Shown one piece after another: positions 23 to 9,456 of a stretch of 9,557 nt of DNA. The translations under genes were made by a program, and so were the position numbers. The stretch is taken from assembly GCA_031266095.1 (NCBI GenBank), contig JAISBR010000207.1, positions 1 to 9,557 on the forward strand. Reading direction: 5' to 3'. Positions within the stretch are counted from its first letter, which is position 1, and the number at the start of each line of letters is the position of its first letter. Below the pieces are notes generated by a model, which was given only the letters and a program-made list of their open reading frames with translations, did not search any database and was not told where the DNA came from. Source of the DNA: Treponema sp. (GTDB taxonomy: Bacteria > Spirochaetota > Spirochaetia > Treponematales > Breznakiellaceae).

Positions 23-289
23 TCAAAATAAACAGCCCCCCCCCCCCCCCCCCCTATCAAAGGCCTGTCTTAACCGGGGAACTCCTCCCATTGCGATTAT
101 AGCAGGGTCGTTGAATATATTGTAGTTTCCAATGATGGCTTCGGGCTGTACCACGGCGGAGGCCGCCTGCCCAAGCAGAGAACACATGGCATGATTAACC
201 AGCACCGTGTAACCCCGGAGATCAAAAACTTCCATGGGATGAGGAACAGATTCTATAAATGTCGATAGCTGTGCAAGGTCCGTTTTCAT
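23..289 (-). CDS. PAS-domain sensor protein N-terminus, interrupted by a poly-G tract (OFF frame)
   Basis: As sequenced the gene encodes 88 residues from the ATG at 289-287. An ATG at 304 is possible, but GGAGG at 302-298 sits 8 bases before the 289 ATG and favours the latter. The protein is a typical PAS core: PHPMEVFDLRGYTVLVNHA (ligand/dimer fold start), then LLGQ, then IIGNYNIFNDPAI and LRQAF. Such domains open sensor kinases, diguanylate cyclases and transcription regulators. After Asp-Arg the codons run into 19 G (36-54) and the frame ends as Gly6-Cys-Leu-Phe-stop. With 18 G the frame instead reads AVYFENIPMPGD to the window edge, which looks like the next PAS strand. The output domain is therefore outside the window. 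It follows the chemoreceptor gene on the same strand but is separated from it by a terminator. PAS call is confident; function of the full protein is unknown. Confidence 0.72.
   Translation of the reverse strand: MKTDLAQLSTFIESVPHPMEVFDLRGYTVLVNHAMCSLLGQAASAVVQPEAIIGNYNIFNDPAIIAMGGVPRLRQAFDRGGGGGGCLF
36..54. repeat. 19-base homopolymer (C on +, G in the PAS gene); candidate phase-variation tract
   Basis: Nineteen consecutive C on the plus strand, read as G inside the minus-strand PAS gene immediately after GAT A. Frame bookkeeping: 19 G gives GGC TGT TTA TTT TGA, a stop within 5 codons. 18 G (or 15, 21) gives GCT GTT TAT TTT GAA and stays open to base 1. Tracts this long are prone to slipped-strand mispairing. 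The exact count may also be affected by sequencing error. Confidence 0.85.
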
Positions 290-313
290 GGAAATAACCT
301 CCATTTCAAAGCT

Positions 314-433
314 TTATGATGAGGTATTACGGTTTATGACGGTGACGGAAGTACCGTTTACGAATAACCAGGCTGAGCCGTATTCACAATAGGCAATTTT
401 TATATTATCCAATTCCGAATATTTTGTTTTCAT
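314..433 (-). CDS. Short 39-residue ORF, possibly a truncated hydrolase-like remnant
   Basis: An ATG at 433-431 opens 39 codons ending in TAA at 316-314, 24 bases before the PAS start at 289. The product begins MKTKYSELDNIKIAYCEYGS and ends INRNTSS. The opening (short strand, then IKIAYCEYGS) resembles the first strands of alpha/beta-hydrolases, in which a Leu-rich strand and His-Gly would follow; here WLFVNGTSVTV follows and the frame ends. It may be a remnant of a broken hydrolase gene or a small coding leader of the PAS gene. The upstream AGAGAAG is only a weak ribosome-binding site. No known family is claimed. Confidence 0.35.
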   Translation of the reverse strand: MKTKYSELDNIKIAYCEYGSAWLFVNGTSVTVINRNTSS

Positions 434-455
434 TTCACTTCTCTATAAAGTATTG

Positions 456-489
456 GGCTTGTTCGACAACTGAAATTTCTGAATAACTC
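456..489 (-). repeat. Palindromic repeat family A, copy A1 (degenerate)
   Basis: On the minus strand it reads GAGTTATTCAGAAA followed by TTTCAGTTGTCGAACAAGCC. It aligns along its whole length with copy A2 (3169-3203) and with the minus strand of A3 (8901-8937), sharing GAG, TGTTC/TATTC and the (C/T)TTCAG centre. Pairing of the arms is imperfect here, so this copy seems decayed. It lies just upstream of the 39-codon ORF and the PAS gene. Confidence 0.5.
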
Positions 490-530
490 TATTTTTATAA
501 TATTGGACTTCTTTTCTTGTGTCAACATGT

Positions 531-569
531 AGACTTGTGAGACAACCAACCGGGTTATCGACCAAGTCT
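531..569 (+). repeat. Palindromic repeat family B, copy B1
   Basis: Inverted repeat AGACTTG...CAAGTCT with an inner GACAACC/GGTTATC pairing. Its centre, AACCAACCGGGTT at 544-556, is identical to the centre of copy B2 (8819-8831, opposite strand), while the arms differ in sequence but keep pairing. A 12-base inverted pair (AATATTGGACTT 499-510 with AAGTCTAATATT 564-575) overlaps it and could form an alternative structure. Confidence 0.5.
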
Positions 570-624
570 AATATTTTCCAGCCGGTTTCCATCTCATTTC
601 GCCTAACTCACTGTATACAAATAA

Positions 625-657
625 CCATCGTATATCTCCAAAGGGGATATACGATGG
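625..657 (-). terminator. Strong hairpin terminator of the chemoreceptor gene
   Basis: CCATCGTATATCTCC (625-639) pairs with GGGGATATACGATGG (643-657) across an AAA loop: 15 base pairs with one G-T type wobble. Outer CTCAC (607-611) and GTGAG (661-665) could extend it. It begins 45 bases beyond the stop of the minus-strand chemoreceptor gene and is followed on that strand by TTATTTGT, a modest U-rich run. It would separate the chemoreceptor transcript from the PAS gene. Confidence 0.75.
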
Positions 658-701
658 CCTGTGAGCAATAATTATATTTCCATGCGAAGGCAAGGAACCG
701 G

Positions 702-2903
702 CTATTCTATCTTGAACCGGGAGACTTCCTGGACGAGAGTGTCGATGTTATCTTTGTTTTTGCCGCTGATGTTATTCACCTGGGTTACGGCGGAGTTGAT
801 CTGATCCGCTCCGGTGGCCATTTCGTTCATCCCATCGGTAATCTCCTGGGTGACCATTTCAAGATTCTTGCTTTCCTGTATAACTTCTCTGCTGCCTTCC
901 AGCATCTCTAGGGAACCGCCCTTGACCTTTTGGGTTAACTCGTTGAGCTGGCTGATCACGTCCAATATCTGCTGGCTCCCTATGCTCTGCTCTTCCATAG
1001 CGTTGCGGATGTTTTCCGCCTGTTCGGAAACTGTTCTGACCCCGCCGTCAATGGTTTCAAACTTGTCGAGAACCGCCTCGGTAGAGCGGGTGATCTTATC
1101 AATGGCGTCCTTGATCTTTTTTAGTACTGCGGAGATGGTCTTGGACTGTTCACCGGAACTTTCGGCCAGTTTTCTGATCTCGTCGGCAACTACCGCGAAA
1201 CCCTTGCCCGCTTCGCCGGCGTGAGCGGCCTCAATGGCGGCATTCATGGAAAGAAGGTTGGTCTGACTGGAGATGTTTTCCATCACCGCGTTGATTTCCA
1301 GAAGGCCCTCCGATTCCCGGGCTATTTGCTGAATATCCGTTGCCACTTCATGGAGGCCGGAGCGGCCTATGTCGCTGGATTCCAGGAGTTCTTGTACATT
1401 TTGAGCGTTCTTGCTCAGGGTTTGGGTTACGGAGTTGATATTGGCAATCATCTCCTCAATGGCGCTTGAAGATTTTGCCACGCTTGAGGTCTGATCTTCC
1501 ACGTGGTTGTTGAGCTTGTCGATGTTGACGGTGATTTGTTCCATCGTAGCGTTTGTTTCCGTTACAGAAGCGCTCTGATTGATAACCCTGCTTTTGATGC
1601 TCTGGATATTGGTGGCGATTTCGTTTACAGCCGTCGCGGTCTCTGCCATGTTGGCCGCAAGCTCATTGCCTATATCGAAGAGGGCCACTGACTGGTCTTT
1701 GATAGTCTTTATCAGGTTTTTGATCTTCTCCAGAGTCTTGTTGAAGTAAAGGGCCAGATTCCCTATTTCATCTTTGGAGGTTACCTTGATGGTCTTAGTC
1801 AGGTCTCCTTCACCTTCGGAAATATCCTTGAGGGTAAGGGCCACATTGCCAATGGGCTTGGTAATACTAGATGCGATAAAAAAGATAATCACCGCCACAA
1901 CCAGAGCTATAATTATCGCTATCAGTACAACGATACGGGTCAAATCTTTAATCTCGTGGAGCATCTCGTTTTCGGAAGTACCGACCATTACGGAAAATGT
2001 AGCTCCGCTTTGCCCTACGGTAAAAGGATGCAGCACAAGCTGTAGATTGGTATTAAGGACTTCTGAAAAAACTTTTAAATTGAGCTGTTTGCCGTTAACT
2101 ACGGCGTCTACCGCCTCTTCTATGTAGGGTTCGTAGAGGGTTTTGTCCGCATCTCTCATATGTCTACCGATTCTGTCCGGCTGATAACTGCCGATGATTA
2201 TGCCGGTGTCGGAATAGATCGCAATGGCACTGATATCACTATTGGTTTCTATGAGTTGGTTAATGATAGGTTGTATCGGGTCAACCCTGATACTGATCCC
2301 TACAAGACCGATCGCTTCGTCTGTACGGGGATTGATAATCGGCGCGGACATGCGGAAAGAATAGGTTTGGATACCAGCCACTTCCTGAGGTATAGGGTCT
2401 TTCACGATCTGTTTTCGTCCACTCGGCCCGTTGATAGACTCCAGGGCTGAGGGAACGGAATCAAAGGTGAGGAATTCTAGGGTTCCTGAGCTCCGGGAAA
2501 AATAGGGGGCGAAGAGTCCTTCGGCGGTTGACCCGACGATTCCCCTGTACTGGCTGTCCAAACCATCCAGGGCTTCAGGCTTAAAGACGGCAAAAATACT
2601 AACCACATCTTCTTCCGTCGTAATGATCGATTCAAGAAAGTGAAAAAACCGGTTCCGCCGCAGCTCAGGTTCGACGCGTTCATAAGATGACAGAAAACCA
2701 GCCGCTACCTCGGCAATCTTGAGATGGGATTCTTCCCACCCCTGCCAGTAAGACGCCTGCTGGGAGGCCAGCCGTTCAATGCTTTTAACAGATAAATCAC
2801 TAATAGTCGATGAAGCCTGGAGAAGTATCAGACTAGCAAGCCCCCCTACTACAAGTACCAAAATGGTAATTACAATGAGACTCAGTCTAAATTTTAGTTT
2901 CAT
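702..2903 (-). CDS. Methyl-accepting chemotaxis protein (dCache sensor, HAMP, MCP signal domain)
   Basis: A 733-residue inner-membrane chemoreceptor that senses an extracytoplasmic ligand and controls CheA through CheW. Order seen: TM1 about residues 8-29; a roughly 290-residue outer sensor (40-318) with dCache-like features; TM2 about 323-345 ([17 protein letters not shown]); HAMP about 346-398 (SITKPIG...DEIGNLA); then a long coiled-coil signalling region to the C-terminus. The hairpin tip is clear at about 543-583 ([20 protein letters not shown], then [16 protein letters not shown]). Glu/Gln-rich segments such as [10 protein letters not shown] may be methylation sites. No CheR-tethering pentapeptide ends the protein (it ends RFKIE). 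The start ATG at 2903 has AGGAG at 2915-2911, 7 bases upstream. It appears monocistronic, ending at the 625-657 terminator. The ligand cannot be told from sequence. Confidence 0.96.
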
Positions 2904-3014
2904 TTTTTAACTCCTGACAGACGAGCTGTCCAAAGACAGTAATCCCCGGAACAGCAACCCCGTATTTTTAAATCGAGGCATTTTCAAATACAGAATCTTA
3001 AAGCCTCTTCTTAA

Positions 3015-3043
3015 ATTATATATATACAATTGCCGGCAGTTTG
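3015..3043 (-). promoter_or_regulatory. Candidate promoter of the chemoreceptor gene
   Basis: On the minus strand TATAAT (3020-3015) lies 111 bases upstream of the chemoreceptor ATG within an A+T-rich run. The -35 position at 17-base spacing reads CAAACT (3043-3038), a poor match. No convincing sigma-28 motif was found, although many spirochaete chemotaxis genes use one. Weak prediction. Confidence 0.25.
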
Positions 3044-3168
3044 GAGAAAACAGGCCGAATTTCCCCGGTTAGTTGAGGTAGTTTCAAAATTAGGTATTTT
3101 TAAGCTAACGAATTCCTTTAAAACGGTATGAGGAGAAAAAAATTATCCGGATGAGATTTTATATAATA

Positions 3169-3203
3169 GAGTTGTTCGATAACTTCAGTTGTCGAATAAA
3201 TTC
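3169..3203 (+). repeat. Palindromic repeat family A, copy A2
   Basis: GAGTTGTTCGATAAC, then TTCAG, then TTGTCGAATAAATTC. TTCGATAAC pairs with GTTGTCGAA (one G-T wobble) around a TTCA loop. It aligns end to end with the reverse complement of A3, whose arms are TGTTCCAAAA/TTTTGGAACA instead; the arm differences are mostly compensatory. A TATAAT lies just before it (3162-3167). Confidence 0.55.
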
Positions 3204-3344
3204 CTTATAAATGTCACCAGACACGAATTAAAAAGCGCCGCTGTTAGACATTCCTCTTTAAGCGCGAAGCGCAGCAAACTGCTGGCACGCATGAATTGGG
3301 TAAATCAGGTTAGAGTTCCTGCCTTTATTTTCCGATACGGCGGT

Positions 3345-3812
3345 TTAATGGGGGGAATTAGGCTCCTCGCTGGTAAGATGTTCTATCAAACCGTCGGATT
3401 TGTATTCGGTTTCCAGTAGCATCTGCCGCTCCTCCCCCGCGTTATTCCGGTAATGGATGACAAGTTTCGGCGCGGAAGGGCTGAAGATTTTTTTCCACCA
3501 CTTTATTTCCCTGATGAGTTTCGCTGAAATTACCCGCTCTTTGGGGATAAAGATGGTTTTTTCCTTGGGCGGCTCGGCGCCGGAGGTAAAATGGGTTATG
3601 GCCTCAATCCAGCCCATGTGGGGAAAATGATGAAAGCGGAAGCCGCCGCTGGTGGCGATGATGAGTCCCCAGATAGCGGTCCAGCCATTTTTGTCGAATT
3701 CTTCCCAGCCGGACACATATTGGCCAAGGCTGCGGGCCAGGACTTTCTCGCCGGTTTTTTCTTCGTATTCCAGCCAGAAGTCTTCGGGTTTTTTTTCGTT
3801 TTTCTTAAGCAT
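3345..3812 (-). CDS. Conserved-looking protein of unknown function, last gene of the redox operon
   Basis: The 155-residue product starts MLKKNEKKPEDFWLEYEEK and has no signal peptide or membrane segment, so it is probably cytoplasmic. Its middle is rich in aromatic residues and glycine (WTAIWGLIIATSGGFRFHHF). Its C-terminal third (IKWWKKIFSPSAPKLVIHY, then a Gly-Glu-Glu turn and a final helix DGLIEHL) has the strand-turn-strand-helix pattern of PH-like or GRAM-like domains; this is an inference, not a recognised family. The ATG at 3812 directly follows the TAA of the DUF1667 gene (TAAATG), so it is likely translationally coupled and co-transcribed. Codons 5-8 sit on an 8-adenine run (3796-3789), a possible slippage site. 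No cysteines are seen, so it is unlikely to carry an Fe-S centre. Confidence 0.8.
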   Translation of the reverse strand: MLKKNEKKPEDFWLEYEEKTGEKVLARSLGQYVSGWEEFDKNGWTAIWGLIIATSGGFRFHHFPHMGWIEAITHFTSGAEPPKEKTIFIPKERVISAKLIREIKWWKKIFSPSAPKLVIHYRNNAGEERQMLLETEYKSDGLIEHLTSEEPNSPH

Positions 3813-4211
3813 TTAATTGACCGTCCTTACCGCGATAACATTTATTCCTTCGCCATTCCAGTCCTCAATCACCGTGTCTCCGGCCTTTATCGGCAGGCTG
3901 ATTTTGGTTTTATAAATATCGGCCAGAAGAGCGGGGATCTTTTCTTTGGGACAGGGCGAAAGGGTTTTAACCGGAACACGTCTGGGTGCGTATAGGCCCC
4001 GTCCCGTCTTGTCCACCGAAACGCCTGTAATGGGGCAGGTGGCGGTCAACACCCGCTTGGGGGCCCGGAGTTCTTCCTGAGCGTAAAGCGCGCCCCGCGG
4101 ACAGCGGTTACCGGTAATGGTCAAAGCCGGAAAACCGTCGTCGTCCGGCGCGTTTTCCTCAACATCGAGAGAACAACCCATGGGACAGACAATACAGGTT
4201 AAGTTTCGCAT
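3813..4211 (-). CDS. DUF1667 family Cys-rich protein, probable Fe-S partner of the oxidoreductases
   Basis: 132 residues from the ATG at 4211. GAGGG overlapping the stop of the preceding gene serves as ribosome-binding site 5 bases upstream, and the protein then begins MRNLTCIVCPMGC as family members do. An ATG 13 codons earlier would overlap the previous gene and adds unrelated residues. Six cysteines are placed as expected for metal or Fe-S binding: C6, C9 and C13 in CIVCPMGC, C37 in NRCPRG, C59 in TATCPITG and C87 in SPCP. DUF1667 proteins are regularly encoded directly after a GlpA-like dehydrogenase and an NAD(P)/FAD oxidoreductase in anaerobes, exactly as here. A role as small electron-transfer subunit of that complex is inferred. 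Confidence 0.9.
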   Translation of the reverse strand: MRNLTCIVCPMGCSLDVEENAPDDDGFPALTITGNRCPRGALYAQEELRAPKRVLTATCPITGVSVDKTGRGLYAPRRVPVKTLSPCPKEKIPALLADIYKTKISLPIKAGDTVIEDWNGEGINVIAVRTVN

Positions 4212-4218
4212 AACACCC

Positions 4219-5496
4219 TCAATTAATGCTGAATTCCAAACAGGAGTCAAAACCGGCGTTCACGCCTTCAAAGTCAGCGGGACCGACTTTTACATTGATC
4301 ATCTCCGAAGGCTGCACATGCTTGTGCTTCTCACTGCGGATGAGCCGGTTATCCAGGCGAAGTTCCAGCACGGCATCGTTTTTTACCACCAATGAACGGA
4401 GGTAGATCCGGTTTTCCTGCTGGGGATTGATCCGTACCGGGTTCACATACTGTACGTTGGAGCCTGTCTTGGCCCGGATCTGCGAGGCCGGCCGCCTGCC
4501 CTCCAGCCATTCCACGGCATAACGGCCGGCCCTGCGGCTTTCCTCGGCAACCCAGTCAACCAGATCGTGCACATGGAGCACGTTGCCGCAGGCAAAGATT
4601 CCTTCAATGTTGGTCATCAGGCTTGAATCCACTATCGGGCCGTTGGTGGCGCTGTTCAGTTCCACCCCGGCGGCCTTAGACAGTTCGTTTTCCGGTACCA
4701 GCCCGACGGAGAGCAGTACCGTGTCGCAGTCAATGCGGAACCGTTTTTCCGGAAGAAGAACACCGTTTTCCATGGGGGTAACCTCAACCCCTTCCACCCG
4801 GTCATTGCCGAAAATATTGGTGGTCTGGGAGGAGAGATAAAGGGGAATATTGAAATCCCGCAGGCACTGAACGATGTTCCTGGTGAGGCCCGAGGGATAG
4901 GGCATAATCTCCACTACGGCCTTTACCGAGCAGCCCACCCAGTTCATACGCCGGGCCATGATGAGGCCGATATCACCGGAACCGATGATCACTACATTCC
5001 TGCCGGGGATGCAGCCTTCGATGTTCACCAGGCGCTGGGCAAGGCCGGCGGTAAACACCCCGGCGGGCCGGGAACCGGGAATACGGACATTGCCCCGGTT
5101 CCGCTCCCGGCAGCCCATTGCCAGCACCACCGCCCGGCTTTGAATCCGCAAAATGCCGGCGGGTGAAACGCAGACCAGCTCTTTATAGGCCGCCAGCCTG
5201 CCGTCAGGGCCGGAAGACGCAACGTTAAAACCGGTCACCGTGGTATCCAGATAGACGGCTATTTTCGATTTCACTACCCGTTCAATGAAACGCTCGGCGA
5301 ATTCAGGCCCGGTAAGCTCTTCGGAAAATTCGTGCAGGCCGAATCCATTGTGAATGCACTGCATGAGGATTCCGCCCAGATGATCTTCCCGTTCAATAAT
5401 GGCGCAGGAGAAACCGGCGGCGTCCAGCTCCAGTGCCGCCGCCATCCCCGCAGCGCCTCCGCCGATTACCACCGCGTCGAAGCTCAGTTCTCTCAT
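4219..5496 (-). CDS. NAD(P)/FAD-dependent oxidoreductase (pyridine nucleotide-disulfide oxidoreductase type)
   Basis: 425 residues, soluble, with two dinucleotide-binding folds. The FAD site is VVIGGGAAGMAAA (G12, G14, G17) with an acidic residue after the second strand (IIERE). The second Rossmann fold for NAD(P)H is VVIIGSGDIG (172-177). The FAD-closing motif is GIFACGNVLHVHDLVDWV (299-316). The segment GGILMQCIHNGFGLHEF (41-57) is typical of the version that accompanies GlpA-like proteins. The C-terminal about 90 residues are a family-specific extension. It starts inside the end of the GlpA-like gene (ATGA overlap at 5496-5493) and is followed 7 bases later by the DUF1667 gene, so the three are translated together. 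It probably moves electrons between NAD(P)H and the partner dehydrogenase; direction and acceptor are unknown. Confidence 0.94.
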   Translation of the reverse strand: MRELSFDAVVIGGGAAGMAAALELDAAGFSCAIIEREDHLGGILMQCIHNGFGLHEFSEELTGPEFAERFIERVVKSKIAVYLDTTVTGFNVASSGPDGRLAAYKELVCVSPAGILRIQSRAVVLAMGCRERNRGNVRIPGSRPAGVFTAGLAQRLVNIEGCIPGRNVVIIGSGDIGLIMARRMNWVGCSVKAVVEIMPYPSGLTRNIVQCLRDFNIPLYLSSQTTNIFGNDRVEGVEVTPMENGVLLPEKRFRIDCDTVLLSVGLVPENELSKAAGVELNSATNGPIVDSSLMTNIEGIFACGNVLHVHDLVDWVAEESRRAGRYAVEWLEGRRPASQIRAKTGSNVQYVNPVRINPQQENRIYLRSLVVKNDAVLELRLDNRLIRSEKHKHVQPSEMINVKVGPADFEGVNAGFDSCLEFSIN

Positions 5497-6923
5497 AGTT
5501 CCGCCTCCAAGAGGCGGCTTGTCCCGCCGTGCTTGGTGATCTCATCCCAGGAAAGGCCGGTTTCCCTCATTATGATCTTGATAATCTTGTAGGTGCAAAA
5601 GCCCCCCTGGCAGCGGCCCATCTGAGCGCGGGTAAAATACTTGATGCCGTCCAGGGTACAATGCCCAAGCCGCACGGACTGCACGATCTCGGCCTCGCTG
5701 ACGTTTTCGCAGCGGCAGACAATGTTGCCCCAGGCGGGATCTTTGGCGATAAGGGCGTCCAGTTCAAAAGTATCGAGTTCCCTCGCGCGGGGACGATTTT
5801 CGATGAGGGGGTCCCAGCCCGGCTTTTCTGTCAGCTCAAGTCCCATGTCCTTTAAGAGATTCTTCACATATTCACCGATTGCGGGGGAAGCGGTAAGTCC
5901 CGGACTCTGAATCCCCGCCACCTGTACAAAGGCGGACGCTTTTTTTGAAGGCTCAATGTAAAAATCTTCTTCCAGGCAGGGACGCAGTCCGGCGAAACTG
6001 GTGATCACATCGTTGCGGCTTAACGAGGGGATCATGTTTTTGCCTGAATCGAGGATCTGTTCCAGGCGTCCGGTTGTGGTGGAAAAATCGCCTTTATCGT
6101 CCGCGGCGTCCGCGGTGGGGCCGACCAGTACCGTCCCCTCCACCGTTGGGATCACCAACATGCCCTTGGAAACCGCTGTGGGTACCGGGAACACAACCTT
6201 CTCCGGGCAGGCCCGCGTTAAGCGATCCATCAGGAAGTATTCACCCTTGCGGGGTTTGATCGAAAAAGCCTCTCCGCCGAAAATTTTCGAAACATCATCG
6301 GCGAACAATCCCGCTGAATTCACCGCATACCGGACCTTGACTTCCCTGCCGTCCCCGGCGCGGATCGTCCAGAGATCGGCCTCTTCATTCCGCTCCGCTC
6401 CGTTCACCTTAAAATCGGTGTAAAGATCAACGCCGTTTTTCACCGCCGATTCCACCAGGGCAAAGACAAAGCGGTACGGTTCGACAATACCGCCGCCCGG
6501 CGCGTACAGACCGCCCGCTGTATCCGGGGACAGTTTCGGCTCCAGTTCCATAATCCGTTCACGGGAGCAAAGCTCAATGCCTATGACGTCGTTTTCAACC
6601 CCCTGCATATAGAGGTGTTCTACCGCCTTCATCTCTTCCTCGTGAAGCGCCGCTACGATGATGCCGCAGCGCTTGAAGGGAAAATTCAGTTCCCGCCTGA
6701 GCTGGTCAAACATGAGGTTCCCCTGAATTTCCAGCCGGGTTTTCAAGTACTTCCTGTTGTGATGAAAACCACCGTGTACAATTCCCGAATTGGCCTTAGA
6801 AGATCCAAATGACACATCCGCCGCTTTTTCGAGAATCGCCGTTTTAATATGATAGGCGGACAGCCGCCGGGCTATATTCGCTCCGGACACACCGCAGCCA
6901 ATAATCGCCACATCGTAGATCAT
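5493..6923 (-). CDS. GlpA-like FAD-dependent dehydrogenase with C-terminal BFD-type [2Fe-2S] domain
   Basis: 476 residues. The DAO-type FAD domain starts at residue 3 (VAIIGCGVSGANIARR; G9, G11, G14) and carries the family segment SSKANSGIVHGGFHH (41-55). It closes with GLRPCLEEDFYIE (312-324) and VQVAGIQSPGLTASPAIGEYV. The C-terminal domain has four cysteines, C403, C405, C438 and C443 (VCRCENV ... GRCQGGFC), the pattern of BFD-like [2Fe-2S] domains. Relatives are annotated as anaerobic glycerol-3-phosphate dehydrogenase or L-2-hydroxyglutarate oxidase-like; the substrate here is not settled and no glycerol kinase or facilitator is nearby. The first gene of a four-gene minus-strand operon, it overlaps the next by 4 bases. 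No clear ribosome-binding site precedes the ATG at 6923, and a TATGAT lies only 7 bases upstream. A glpA symbol is withheld. Confidence 0.93.
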   Translation of the reverse strand: MIYDVAIIGCGVSGANIARRLSAYHIKTAILEKAADVSFGSSKANSGIVHGGFHHNRKYLKTRLEIQGNLMFDQLRRELNFPFKRCGIIVAALHEEEMKAVEHLYMQGVENDVIGIELCSRERIMELEPKLSPDTAGGLYAPGGGIVEPYRFVFALVESAVKNGVDLYTDFKVNGAERNEEADLWTIRAGDGREVKVRYAVNSAGLFADDVSKIFGGEAFSIKPRKGEYFLMDRLTRACPEKVVFPVPTAVSKGMLVIPTVEGTVLVGPTADAADDKGDFSTTTGRLEQILDSGKNMIPSLSRNDVITSFAGLRPCLEEDFYIEPSKKASAFVQVAGIQSPGLTASPAIGEYVKNLLKDMGLELTEKPGWDPLIENRPRARELDTFELDALIAKDPAWGNIVCRCENVSEAEIVQSVRLGHCTLDGIKYFTRAQMGRCQGGFCTYKIIKIIMRETGLSWDEITKHGGTSRLLEAEL

Positions 6924-6930
6924 TCATTTA

Positions 6931-6936
6931 ATCATA
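6931..6936 (-). promoter_or_regulatory. Candidate -10 box for the redox operon
   Basis: On the minus strand TATGAT is followed by 7 bases and then the ATG of the GlpA-like gene. No Shine-Dalgarno sequence lies between, so if this box is used the transcript would be nearly leaderless. The -35 position is poor (TAGTAT at 17-base spacing). Confidence 0.35.
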
Positions 6937-6959
6937 TAGGTTAATTAAAAAAGATACTA

Positions 6960-6965
6960 TATAAT
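6960..6965 (+). promoter_or_regulatory. Candidate -10 box (TATAAT) for the DUF4838-like gene
   Basis: A perfect TATAAT is separated by only six bases (AGAATC) from the ATG at 6972. Initiation at the usual distance would start the RNA at or next to the start codon. No Shine-Dalgarno sequence is present, which fits a leaderless message. The -35 region is weak (TAGGTT at 17 bases). It is divergent from the operon promoter, within a 48-base shared gap. Confidence 0.45.
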
Positions 6966-6971
6966 AGAATC

Positions 6972-8096
6972 ATGAGAAGCTGGGCGGTTTTCGACGTTTC
7001 AAAAAATTGGGTCATTCTCGCGCCGGCATCTGTTCCGGCGGCCTGGAACGCCGTGGATGAATTGGCCTTCTATATTGGCCTGCTTCGGGACAGGGCAGGG
7101 CTTGGTAAAAATCAGCCCCCGGTTGAGGATGCCGAAACCGCCTCGCCCCTGGCCGGCGTCCCTATTATTTTGATTGGTGTTACCGCTGCCGCCAGGGATC
7201 GAAACGGCTTTGCGTGGCGGATTGGCCAGGACCGGATTGAAATACAGGGCGATTCCATTCGCGGCCTATGGAACGCTGTCTTTAGCTTTCTTTCCACCCT
7301 GAATATCCGCTGGCCTGAACCCGAACAGGAAGAGCTTCCTCCGCCTCCCACGGCGGGCGTCTATCCCCTGGGAAAAAACAGAAATTATTGCCATTCGGCA
7401 TCTTCCGTTCAGGACCGGCGGCGGCTTATTGTGGATGAAAGATTAGCGGCAAAGGAACGGGCGCTGTTGATCCGTTGGGCTGCCCGGAATCAATATGATG
7501 CGTTGATATTTTCCCTTGCTGCAAAAGGCCTTTGGAACAAGGCGCGGTCTGGCAGGGGAATTCGCCTGGAGACTGAACGTTATGCTCTTATCCTTGAGGC
7601 GGGTGGCCGGGATTTGTCTTATCTCCTACCCCGGCGGCTGTTTTTCTTTCATCAGAATATGTTCCGTATGGATTACGGCAGGCGCGTCAAAGAACACCAT
7701 TTCTGTGCCACCAATCCCAAAACCATCAGGCTGATTAAAATAACGGCTGAGAAGCTGTTCGTCCGCGCAATGGCGGGAATGAACGCCCAGCCATTTTTCC
7801 GCAGCCGCACCGGTTCCAAAGTCGTCCAACCCCCCGCAGTCGTCCCGGTTTTTCATCTCTGGCCTGACCGGGACCATGAAAGAACCTGGTGCGCCTGCCC
7901 CGCCTGCCGCGCTTTCAGCCCCGAAGAACAAAACCGTATCGCGATCAACTCCGTTGCAGATGTTCTCGCCGGTCTTGATCCACAGGCGCGGCTCTCGTAT
8001 TTTGAAGCCCCGGCGGAAATCTCCGGTAATCCAGCGGATGTCCCCGCCGTCAGCATTGCCCCTCGTGCCAATACGTTTTCATTAAGCTTGTGTTAG
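6972..8096 (+). CDS. DUF4838-like protein with glycoside-hydrolase-type N-terminal domain, apparently C-terminally short
   Basis: 374 residues, no signal peptide. Residues about 1-120 resemble the non-catalytic N-terminal domain found before GH67/GH20-type barrels, ending in the typical SIRGLWNAVFSFLSTLNIRWPEP (a stretch that in relatives reads like 'LYGVYSFLE-LG-RW'). Residues about 160-345 carry DUF4838-type signatures: IRWAARNQYDALIF, LLPRRLFFFHQNMF, FCATNPKTIRLI, and WCACPACRAFSPEEQ (306-320) followed by a helix and LDPQARLSYFEAP. DUF4838 proteins are linked to polysaccharide-related functions, but their activity is poorly defined. Family members usually continue for a few hundred more residues; this one stops after SIAPRANTFSLSLC, immediately before a cluster of hairpins, so it may be truncated. 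Start choice rests on homology and on the TATAAT six bases upstream. Confidence 0.75.
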   Translation: MRSWAVFDVSKNWVILAPASVPAAWNAVDELAFYIGLLRDRAGLGKNQPPVEDAETASPLAGVPIILIGVTAAARDRNGFAWRIGQDRIEIQGDSIRGLWNAVFSFLSTLNIRWPEPEQEELPPPPTAGVYPLGKNRNYCHSASSVQDRRRLIVDERLAAKERALLIRWAARNQYDALIFSLAAKGLWNKARSGRGIRLETERYALILEAGGRDLSYLLPRRLFFFHQNMFRMDYGRRVKEHHFCATNPKTIRLIKITAEKLFVRAMAGMNAQPFFRSRTGSKVVQPPAVVPVFHLWPDRDHERTWCACPACRAFSPEEQNRIAINSVADVLAGLDPQARLSYFEAPAEISGNPADVPAVSIAPRANTFSLSLC

Positions 8097-8110
8097 GTGA
8101 AATGACGGAG

Positions 8111-8125
8111 GCCGCGATAAGCGGC
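8111..8125 (+). terminator. Small G+C-rich hairpin after the DUF4838-like gene
   Basis: GCCGC (8111-8115) pairs with GCGGC (8121-8125) around GATAA, 15 bases after the stop. No U-run follows, so intrinsic termination is uncertain. Confidence 0.3.
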
Positions 8126-8150
8126 GCCCGGCGGCTTGATTCGTGGCGAA

Positions 8151-8196
8151 GGGTCCATACCCCGGCCCCTTGGGGTGGAACCAAGGGTATGGACCC
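8151..8196. repeat. Long extragenic palindrome with nested hairpin (REP-like, copy 1)
   Basis: GGGTCCATACCC (8151-8162) and GGGTATGGACCC (8185-8196) form a perfect 12-base inverted repeat. Within its 22-base centre CCCC-TT-GGGG forms a second small hairpin. The segment CATACCCCGGCCCCTTGGGG matches CATACCCCGACCGCTTGCGG at 8222-8241, including a compensatory C/G swap on both sides of the CTTG turn. It resembles repetitive extragenic palindromes. Terminator or mRNA-end protection are possible roles. Confidence 0.65.
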
Positions 8197-8216
8197 TGAG
8201 TCAAATACCTTATGAG

Positions 8217-8251
8217 AACAACATACCCCGACCGCTTGCGGCGGGGTTGTT
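8217..8251. repeat. Extragenic palindrome, copy 2, abutting the luxS promoter
   Basis: CCCCG-A-CCGC (8226-8235), TT loop, GCGG-CGGGG (8238-8246): nine G+C pairs with one bulged A. AACAA (8217-8221) and TTGTT (8247-8251) can extend the stem across a 4-base bulge. Its right arm touches the candidate luxS -35 box, so it could affect luxS transcription or terminate transcription from upstream. No U-run follows. Confidence 0.6.
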
Positions 8252-8278
8252 GATTATAAAAACAATTCCGGCTATAGT
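8250..8278 (+). promoter_or_regulatory. Candidate luxS promoter
   Basis: TTGATT (8250-8255), 17-base spacer, TATAGT (8273-8278). Initiation near 8285 would give a leader of about a dozen bases holding GAGGAG (8285-8290), 6 bases before the luxS ATG. Spacing is ideal for a sigma-70 type promoter and box matches are fair. Confidence 0.5.
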
Positions 8279-8296
8279 AAGTGTGAGGAGCGGTAA

Positions 8297-8776
8297 ATGG
8301 AAAAAATCGCCAGTTTTCAGGTTGACCATCTCCGGCTGAAGCCGGGGGTATATGTATCCCGCAAGGATCGTTTCAGCGGCGCGGCCCTGACCACTTTTGA
8401 TCTTCGTTTCAAGGAGCCCAACAAGGAACCGGTGATGGATCAGCCGGCCTTACACACCATTGAACACCTGGGAGCTACTTTTCTCCGTTCCCACAAAGAT
8501 TGGGGTTCCAGGGTGGTGTACTTTGGTCCCATGGGCTGCCGTACCGGCTTTTACCTAATCCTGGAAGGGGATCTTAATTCCGAGGGCGTTCTCCCCCTGC
8601 TGCGCGAAATGCTGGACTGGGTGGATCGGTTTGACGGCCTCATCCCCGGCGCCGCCGCCGCTGAATGCGGCAACTGGCAGGAACAAAACCTCGATATGGC
8701 CAAATGGGAATGTCGCCGCTATGCCGCGCTCCTCTGCAGCCCCGGGAAGGAAAACTTGAATTATCCGGGTGAGTAG
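8297..8776 (+). CDS. luxS: S-ribosylhomocysteine lyase LuxS (AI-2 synthesis)
   Basis: 159 residues, the normal length for the family. It cleaves S-ribosylhomocysteine to homocysteine and DPD, the precursor of autoinducer-2, in the activated methyl cycle of the cytosol. The metal-binding and catalytic residues are all present: H53 and H57 with E56 in ALHTIEHLGATF, the catalytic C81 in GPMGCRTGFY, and the metal ligand C124 in ECGNWQEQNL. The N-terminal FQVDHLRLKPGVYVSR is also typical. GAGGAG lies 6 bases before the ATG. It stands alone between the DUF4838-like gene and a set of hairpins; no pfs or methionine-cycle gene is in the window. Looks intact and functional. Confidence 0.97.
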   Translation: MEKIASFQVDHLRLKPGVYVSRKDRFSGAALTTFDLRFKEPNKEPVMDQPALHTIEHLGATFLRSHKDWGSRVVYFGPMGCRTGFYLILEGDLNSEGVLPLLREMLDWVDRFDGLIPGAAAAECGNWQEQNLDMAKWECRRYAALLCSPGKENLNYPGE

Positions 8777-8805
8777 GCGATAGCAAAGATTTTTCGATAT
8801 TACTT

Positions 8806-8843
8806 GAGCTTGTTCCAAAACCCGGTTGGTTTTGGACAAGCTC
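8806..8843 (+). terminator. Hairpin after luxS; palindromic repeat family B, copy B2
   Basis: GAGCTTGTTCCAAAACC pairs with GGTTTTGGACAAGCTC, 16 pairs with one bulged T, around a CGGTT loop, 29 bases after the luxS stop. Its centre on the opposite strand is AACCAACCGGGTT, identical to B1 at 544-556. No long U-run follows, so it may be a terminator or just the repeat. Confidence 0.6.
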
Positions 8844-8845
8844 TT

Positions 8846-8888
8846 GGAAAAACCGGTCAAATCGGCCTAAAGTCCGGCCCGGTTTTCC
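8846..8888. repeat. Intergenic hairpin between repeats B2 and A3
   Basis: GGAAAAACCGG (8846-8856) pairs with CCGGTTTTCC (8879-8888), 10 pairs with one bulged A, around a 22-base centre that itself contains CGGCC and CCGGCC. It lies in line with two other palindromes between luxS and the methyltransferase gene. Role unknown. Confidence 0.5.
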
Positions 8889-8900
8889 TCTAAATTTAAG

Positions 8901-8937
8901 GAAGCTGTTCCAAAAGCTGAAGTTTTGGAACAGCCTC
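8901..8937 (-). repeat. Palindromic repeat family A, copy A3 (best preserved)
   Basis: GCTGTTCCAAAA (8904-8915) and TTTTGGAACAGC (8923-8934) form a perfect 12-base-pair stem around GCTGAAG. On the minus strand it reads GAGGCTGTTCCAAAA-CTTCAG-CTTTTGGAACAGCTTC and aligns with A2 and A1. It lies about 55 bases upstream of the methyltransferase start. Confidence 0.65.
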
Positions 8938-8952
8938 ACTTTACAAAAAAAC

Positions 8953-8958
8953 TATAAA
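8953..8958 (+). promoter_or_regulatory. Possible -10 box of the methyltransferase gene
   Basis: TATAAA in an A-rich stretch directly after repeat A3. Initiation near 8965 would exclude the ATG at 8962 and give a leader of under 30 bases for the ATG at 8992. The -35 region is not convincing. Confidence 0.25.
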
Positions 8959-8991
8959 AACATGCTAAACAATATTTTTGGCGGTATTAAA

Positions 8992-9456
8992 ATGATGGAA
9001 TCGAATAGGGTAAAGCGTGAAAAAGTATGGCACAATAAAACATTTGGAACAGATGTACGCGCGAAGGTTGGAAAATTTTATTCAATCAATTATTTACTAA
9101 ACAAGGAATTTGACTCTATAATTAATGAAAATCTAAAAAAAGAAACGACCGTTTTTATGGATTATGGGTGTGGTACCGGTTATTATTTAATGAATATCGC
9201 ATCGAAAATAAAAAAGGGAGTAGGAATAGATATTTCTGAGGAACGAATTAAAGAAGCAAAAACAATAATGAAAGAAAAAAATATTGACAATATTGAATTT
9301 ATGGTTATGGACGCAATGAATACATCATTTGAAAGTGGTTATTTTAATATAATTCATGGGACAGCGATATTGCATCACTTGGATTTAGAGAGGAGTCTTG
9401 TTGAAATCAAACGATTATTGAGGGGGGGGGGGGGGGGGGTAGCATTTTTTGTTTAA
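8992..9456 (+). CDS. Class I SAM-dependent methyltransferase, interrupted by a poly-G tract (OFF frame)
   Basis: 154 residues as sequenced. Motif I is VFMDYGCGTGYYL (SAM-binding loop); the acidic residue after strand 2 is in GVGIDISEERI; then FMVMDAM and IIHGTAILHHL (motif II region), and EIKRLLR where relatives continue Pro-Gly-Gly into strand 5. This is the small-molecule or lipid/quinone-type methyltransferase fold; the substrate cannot be read. At this point 18 G (9422-9439) give Gly5 and then VAFFV-stop. With 19 G the frame reads GSIFCLTTGYKN and stays open to the window end. Start: GGCGGT lies about 7 bases before the ATG at 8992; an in-frame ATG at 8962 lacks a ribosome-binding site. 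Codon use is very A+T-rich (for example 16 G+C in the 60 bases 9061-9120), unlike neighbours, suggesting recent acquisition. Confidence 0.75.
   Translation: MMESNRVKREKVWHNKTFGTDVRAKVGKFYSINYLLNKEFDSIINENLKKETTVFMDYGCGTGYYLMNIASKIKKGVGIDISEERIKEAKTIMKEKNIDNIEFMVMDAMNTSFESGYFNIIHGTAILHHLDLERSLVEIKRLLRGGGGGVAFFV
9422..9439. repeat. 18-base poly-G tract inside the methyltransferase gene; candidate phase-variation tract
   Basis: Eighteen G follow the A at 9421, so the first codon is AGG (Arg) and five GGG follow. Outcomes by length: 17 G gives an immediate TAG, 18 G gives VAFFV then TAA, and 19 (or 16, 22) G gives GGT AGC ATT, open to base 9557. In an otherwise A+T-rich gene so long a G run is strikingly out of character. 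The exact length may be misread. Confidence 0.85.

Follow-up and report, generated by a model that had tools for sequence, protein, structure and literature searches.

Two long homopolymeric G tracts lie inside coding sequences near opposite ends of a contig from a termite-gut treponeme, and both are likely to be simple-sequence contingency loci subject to phase variation by strand slippage, which as a type of switch is known but would here reach an unusual scale. The window, i.e. the whole stretch of 9,557 nucleotides that was analysed, is this entire contig. A run scan confirmed the two tracts of 18-19 bases described in the initial annotation, a C19 (G19 on the minus strand) and a G18 (Table 1); all remaining G or C runs in the window are at most 6 long. 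Assuming equal base frequencies, G or C runs of at least 18 are expected about 2e-7 times in DNA of this size, and the two homopolymers thus exceed chance as is typical of phase-variable genes. A change in tract length would alter the reading frame, since both tracts are located inside ORFs with matching protein on either side, the downstream side of the PAS-type gene comprising 11 residues. In addition, tract length at the same site differs between genomes, both for the methyltransferase gene (G18, G22 or none) and for an AraC-type regulator of the same family of genomes (G14, G18, G21 or none). Neither tract has the promoter location of the Treponema pallidum tpr kind.

Table 1. Tract-related features of the window, with positions on the 9,557-nucleotide contig.
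Feature	Position	Strand	Basis or remark
G19 tract (C19 on the plus strand) in the PAS-type gene, frame shifted by one in the assembly	36..54	-	Site of the AF..GE motif
PAS-type ORF, 93 aa, shortened after the tract	23..304	-	Pfam PAS matches below cut-off; ~30 bits to PAS-AraC-type proteins
Rest of the PAS gene beyond the tract (VYFENIPMPGD), shifted frame, to the contig end	1..35	-	Comparison with the family motif
G18 tract in the methyltransferase gene, family frame kept as assembled	9422..9439	+	G22 at the same site in genome G001
Class I SAM-dependent methyltransferase ORF, 164 aa; TAA five residues past the last Gly	8962..9456	+	
Post-tract tail to the contig end	9440..9557	+	In-frame family match; two TAA at family Glu positions

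The nearest relatives of the oxidoreductase encoded in the window come from termite-gut treponemes (L001-L003; 90-91% identity, based on this one protein). The central gene order of the window is kept in many of the 40 loci listed out of 75, and the MCP, LuxS, PAS and methyltransferase genes had no match among these 40. The luxS gene (8297-8776) ends 185 bp ahead of the tract-bearing methyltransferase gene.

We compared the methyltransferase with a set of 41 proteins, including the window's own. Full-length relatives carry EIKRLL, followed by a short loop that usually contains Gly (KDG, KPGG, NGG and similar at the tract site) and then by AFFIEPLDTN. The tract therefore occupies a place where Gly is natural, as had been proposed. 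The same annotation had both genes off by one base, which is correct for the PAS gene only: past the methyltransferase tract, 24 of 38 residues match the homologue P0002 in the frame kept by G18, compared with at most six in either other frame, and an off-frame methyltransferase was rejected on this basis. The ORF ends because a TAA stands where the family has Glu, not because the frame is lost, and a second TAA replaces another Glu. That an in-frame copy is nevertheless stopped counts against phase variation. In the nearest genome, G001, the same site carries G22, located 109 bp from a contig end and followed by a damaged-looking tail. What follows a long homopolymer of G at the end of a contig is probably poorly determined, and real nonsense changes are also possible.

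Seven of the 40 other homologues are shorter than 200 aa. Six of them end 1-26 residues past a stretch of 2-7 Gly at the tract site, whereas the seventh, P0020, is broken elsewhere. The end of P0008, HFLLNLLIQIYL, looks by eye, at the protein level, like the family sequence translated in a frame shifted by one base. The six endings past the site, together with G18 in the window versus G22 in G001, argue for a switch; P0007, with only two Gly, argues against it. A search of 195 genomes of the family at E below 1e-50 returned five close homologues. Only that of G001 has the tract, which likewise weighs against a switch, and L106, L107 and L109 are open without one. At L110 (genome G014), which lacks a G run, the frame breaks directly past the same site, an observation that also disfavors tract-dependent switching.

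The 93-aa ORF at the other end of the contig gave PAS matches slightly under the Pfam cut-offs, and the only match in a homologue search with this cut ORF was the window's own protein. Among the 195 family genomes we obtained a single weak match (E 5e-4, 31%) and no close orthologue; the scarcity of matches counts against a switch. The weakly matching protein has 274 aa and ends in an AraC HTH; its first half has no Pfam match and is called PAS-type solely by its similarity to the window. The corresponding PAS-AraC-type family holds 163 proteins, 120 of which were listed and used for motif counts, and the best of these 120 reaches ~30 bits with the window ORF. AF or GF, one to three residues and then GE occur in 117 of the 120 listed relatives, and in 42 of the 120 AF..GE is followed by AV or TV. 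The window gene reads AFDRG, the tract and then VYFENIPMPGD one frame off, which again places the tract at a natural Gly. Because the downstream frame is shifted by one, the copy is OFF as assembled, provided that the tract length is right and on the strength of the 11 downstream residues. The ORF probably represents the beginning of a longer regulator that extends past the contig; by its resemblance to this family, the regulator may be of the AraC type, with its own end beyond the contig.

Clearer examples of tract-bearing regulators are found in relatives. One AraC-type regulator (AraC_binding followed by HTH_18) has matches at 25 places in 22 of the 195 family genomes. Its linker contains a tract in G003 (18), G018 (14) and G046 (21), in each case off frame, away from contig ends and with both domains readable. 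These three lengths at one linker in three genomes favor phase variation. Further tracts of this gene stand at contig ends in G007 and G014, and in G009 and G084 the contig breaks off close to the site. Orthologues lacking the tract, a comparison that the initial annotation had proposed, were found for this gene: eight loci have no G tract and an open frame of 300-329 aa, one tract-free locus being 88% identical to the G003 copy over residues 1-98. The remaining loci are partial or weak matches. In one tract-free orthologue with an open frame (L271), the coding strand carries a C10 at 891-900, close to this linker.

Growth of the runs from small Gly seeds, one of two origins suggested earlier, fits the GE motif of the listed PAS-AraC-type relatives, the Gly-bearing methyltransferase loops and the tract-free AraC genes. 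The other, insertion of poly-G by some process, found no support, and no insertion process is needed. An A precedes both tracts of the window, which creates the noted AGG GGG start in the upstream frame. This context is not general, as 71 internal tracts of the sample described below are preceded by C in 31 cases, T in 29 and A in only 11, and AGG as a shared start signal was consequently rejected. The earlier observation thus holds in the main, with two errors of detail, namely that both genes are off by one and that AGG is shared.

We then counted runs of at least 12 G across genomes, bearing in mind that the counts include contig-end runs and that most genomes are draft MAGs of uncontrolled sequencing source. 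Such runs are present in 174 of the 195 genomes of the family to which G001 belongs, with a median of 14, a mean of 24 and a maximum of 271 per genome, and seven genomes have at least 100. Poly-A runs of at least 12 occur in 106 of the 195, mostly 0-3 each and 19 at most. The order was represented by 340 genomes, 196 of which were absent from the family search and taken as other families; in these, 75 of 196 have any run, the median is 0, two reach 10 and the maximum is 32. The complete genome of Breznakiella homolactica (G015) has zero runs of 12 or more G. The excess over both the other families of the order and poly-A supports phase variation.

Individual runs were examined in 140 sampled stretches, the counts of runs of at least 10 G being taken from the first 120 plus the window; the sample is uneven, as many start-of-contig runs were left out. 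It holds 131 runs of at least 10 G, of which 71 are internal, i.e. at least 300 bp from contig ends, and 10-22 long, again in favor of a switch. The expectation of many tracts genome-wide is hence supported in relatives and may extend to the window's own strain. With regard to coding sequence, 84 internal tracts had long open frames on both sides in 24 cases, on one side in 26 and on neither in 34, whereas the corresponding figures for 2000 random points in these loci are 1156, 569 and 275. Tracts are thus commoner outside long open frames, which speaks against a role in switching reading frames. Where both sides are coding, G lies on the coding strand in 18 cases and C in 6, a preference that supports it. 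Ten of the G-strand tracts coding on both sides are at least 12 long; six are in frame and four out of frame, with the frames of L297 and L301 barely above the limit and possibly spurious. An AraC HTH follows the tract in four of these ten (L171, L173, L220, L250).

The position of the window's tracts, 35 bp (36-54) and 118 bp (9422-9439) from the contig ends and both reading G outward, counts against phase variation and invites the alternative that loss of quality or a turn to G at contig ends produced false or overlong poly-G. Contig ends do hold doubtful G: the sample contains 60 runs near contig ends, 44 with G outward, including the two of the window, and 16 with C outward, and odd ends exist such as a run of 73 G in L259 and mixed G-rich ends. 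The damaged-looking sequence past the methyltransferase tract in the window and in G001 points the same way. On the other hand, the window sequence resumes past its tract with a match to the same gene family, and the site is identical in G001. Confinement to contig ends, one of the refuting conditions named in the initial annotation, does apply to the window's contig and is countered by the 71 internal runs of relatives, some of which lie in contigs of 70-385 kb. In genome G077, 13 of 21 runs of at least 9 in 20 whole contigs (157.7 kb) are internal. HiSeq machines of the 2000, 2500 and 4000 types do not have the dark-G fault, and it was machines of these types that served two termite metagenome studies. 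According to the available text of these studies, HiSeq 2000/2500 and HiSeq2500/4000 were used (PMC7024585, PMC9137090), and the sample codes Co191, Emb289 and Nc150 in relatives' records match one of the two, the connection consisting of such codes only. An artefact is, in our view, very unlikely to account for the tracts.

It is also unlikely that long G runs are neutral by-products of dying genes or weak mismatch repair, with no useful switching. Such decay would agree with the 34 of 84 internal tracts that lack long open frames, against 275 of 2000 random points, and with the two TAA in the methyltransferase tail. MutS and MutL were surveyed in 28 genomes picked by run count. Four of ten high-count genomes (G077, G075, G092, G074) yielded no MutL above the cut-off, compared with one of 14 zero-count genomes; given the few genomes, this gap, whether a real loss or a MAG gap, is only a lead. 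Overall, MutS passed the cut-off in 22 of 28 genomes and MutL in 23 of 28, including G001-G003, and their loss as a general cause was rejected. Poly-A, moreover, shows no comparable rise, and the off-frame AraC genes keep readable domains on either side, although recent decay could leave the same picture.

Slipped-strand phase variation, by comparison, fits the sites in Gly loops and linkers, the length differences between orthologues and the copies that are off frame yet keep a readable domain downstream. That G runs undergo slipped-strand mispairing has been established in other systems (PMC7864442, PMC6321876). During replication, such mispairing would add or remove bases in the G run, and the gene would thereby enter or leave its reading frame; a population would then consist of a mix of ON and OFF cells for the PAS-type regulator and the methyltransferase, possibly to the cell's benefit. 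As the runs occupy existing Gly in a tolerant loop, lengths that keep the frame would differ by only a few Gly. The same arrangement recurs across the termite-gut treponeme family, in genes and between them, and AraC-type regulators are repeated targets.

Poly-G phase variation is known above all from pathogens. Like the poly-G genes of Campylobacter, in which poly-G/C is the main repeat type, the genes described here have G runs in reading frames, coding-strand Gly and frame switching as the predicted outcome (PMC6321876). That report gives 1944 tracts of at least 7 in 77 genomes, with a peak at 9-10, 13-15 being rare and 77% in ORFs, whereas in the termite-gut family lengths of 12-22 are common, long frames flank 24 of 84 internal tracts on both sides and the tracts are known from assemblies. 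T. pallidum, also a treponeme, has G runs that vary in length, but its studied tracts are in promoters and alter transcription (tprL, 7-11 G), unlike the coding tracts of 18-19 in the window (PMC7864442). Neisseria meningitidis resembles the family in its large repertoire of variable simple repeats per genome; there, deep sequencing confirmed variation in 115 genes (PMC5084427), in contrast to an uncultured insect-gut lineage known from assemblies. Among titles and abstract starts, a coverage outside which most subscription papers fall, we recognised no paper on phase variation in termite treponemes; a joint search for the genus, termites and phase variation listed a single paper, which concerns a Mycoplasma, and PMC13067680 and PMC12236494 contained none of the terms looked for.

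The type of switch is already known; its scale and run length in a family of symbionts and the repeated hits on AraC-type regulators stand out as unusual. Poly-G phase variation appears here to span an insect-gut symbiont family and so to extend beyond pathogens; the runs are longer than those of 9-10 that are usual in Campylobacter (PMC6321876), and their number in the top genomes is far greater. With such tracts in gut symbionts, bet-hedging outside disease becomes testable by sequencing of termite guts. It is possible, though we stop short of calling it probable, that few if any bacteria surpass the family in the size and run length of their poly-G switch repertoire, which in many genomes would comprise tens to hundreds of runs of at least 12 G and have AraC-type regulators as repeated targets, such that one slip could toggle a whole gene set in a mutualist gut community. 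In practical terms, assemblies of family genomes tend to break at such tracts, and truncated-looking genes at tracts may only be OFF.

Several further patterns were seen around G runs. In G077 (L282-L301), 10 of 13 internal G runs are exactly 14 long, a sharp mode, and most are outside long open frames, which looks as if a set length mattered between genes. In G004, five loci (L152-L155 and L157) have AAC ahead of the run, TAAA behind it and similar surroundings, like a repeated intergenic element. Near-identical flanks surround G runs of 13-21 in two sets of G003 loci, L187/L194 and L174/L184/L195, the latter with hairpin-like sequence past the run. Directly ahead of the G run, L149, L170 and L192 (G002, G003) show related versions of one motif, ATTCCTAGTA...TATC, which may be a promoter or a regulator site. 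Finally, L206 of genome G006 carries a G10 within a coding sequence for RGGGRSS, in a protein that we take to be chorismate synthase, and a run of this length can thus be plain Gly codons of an essential enzyme.
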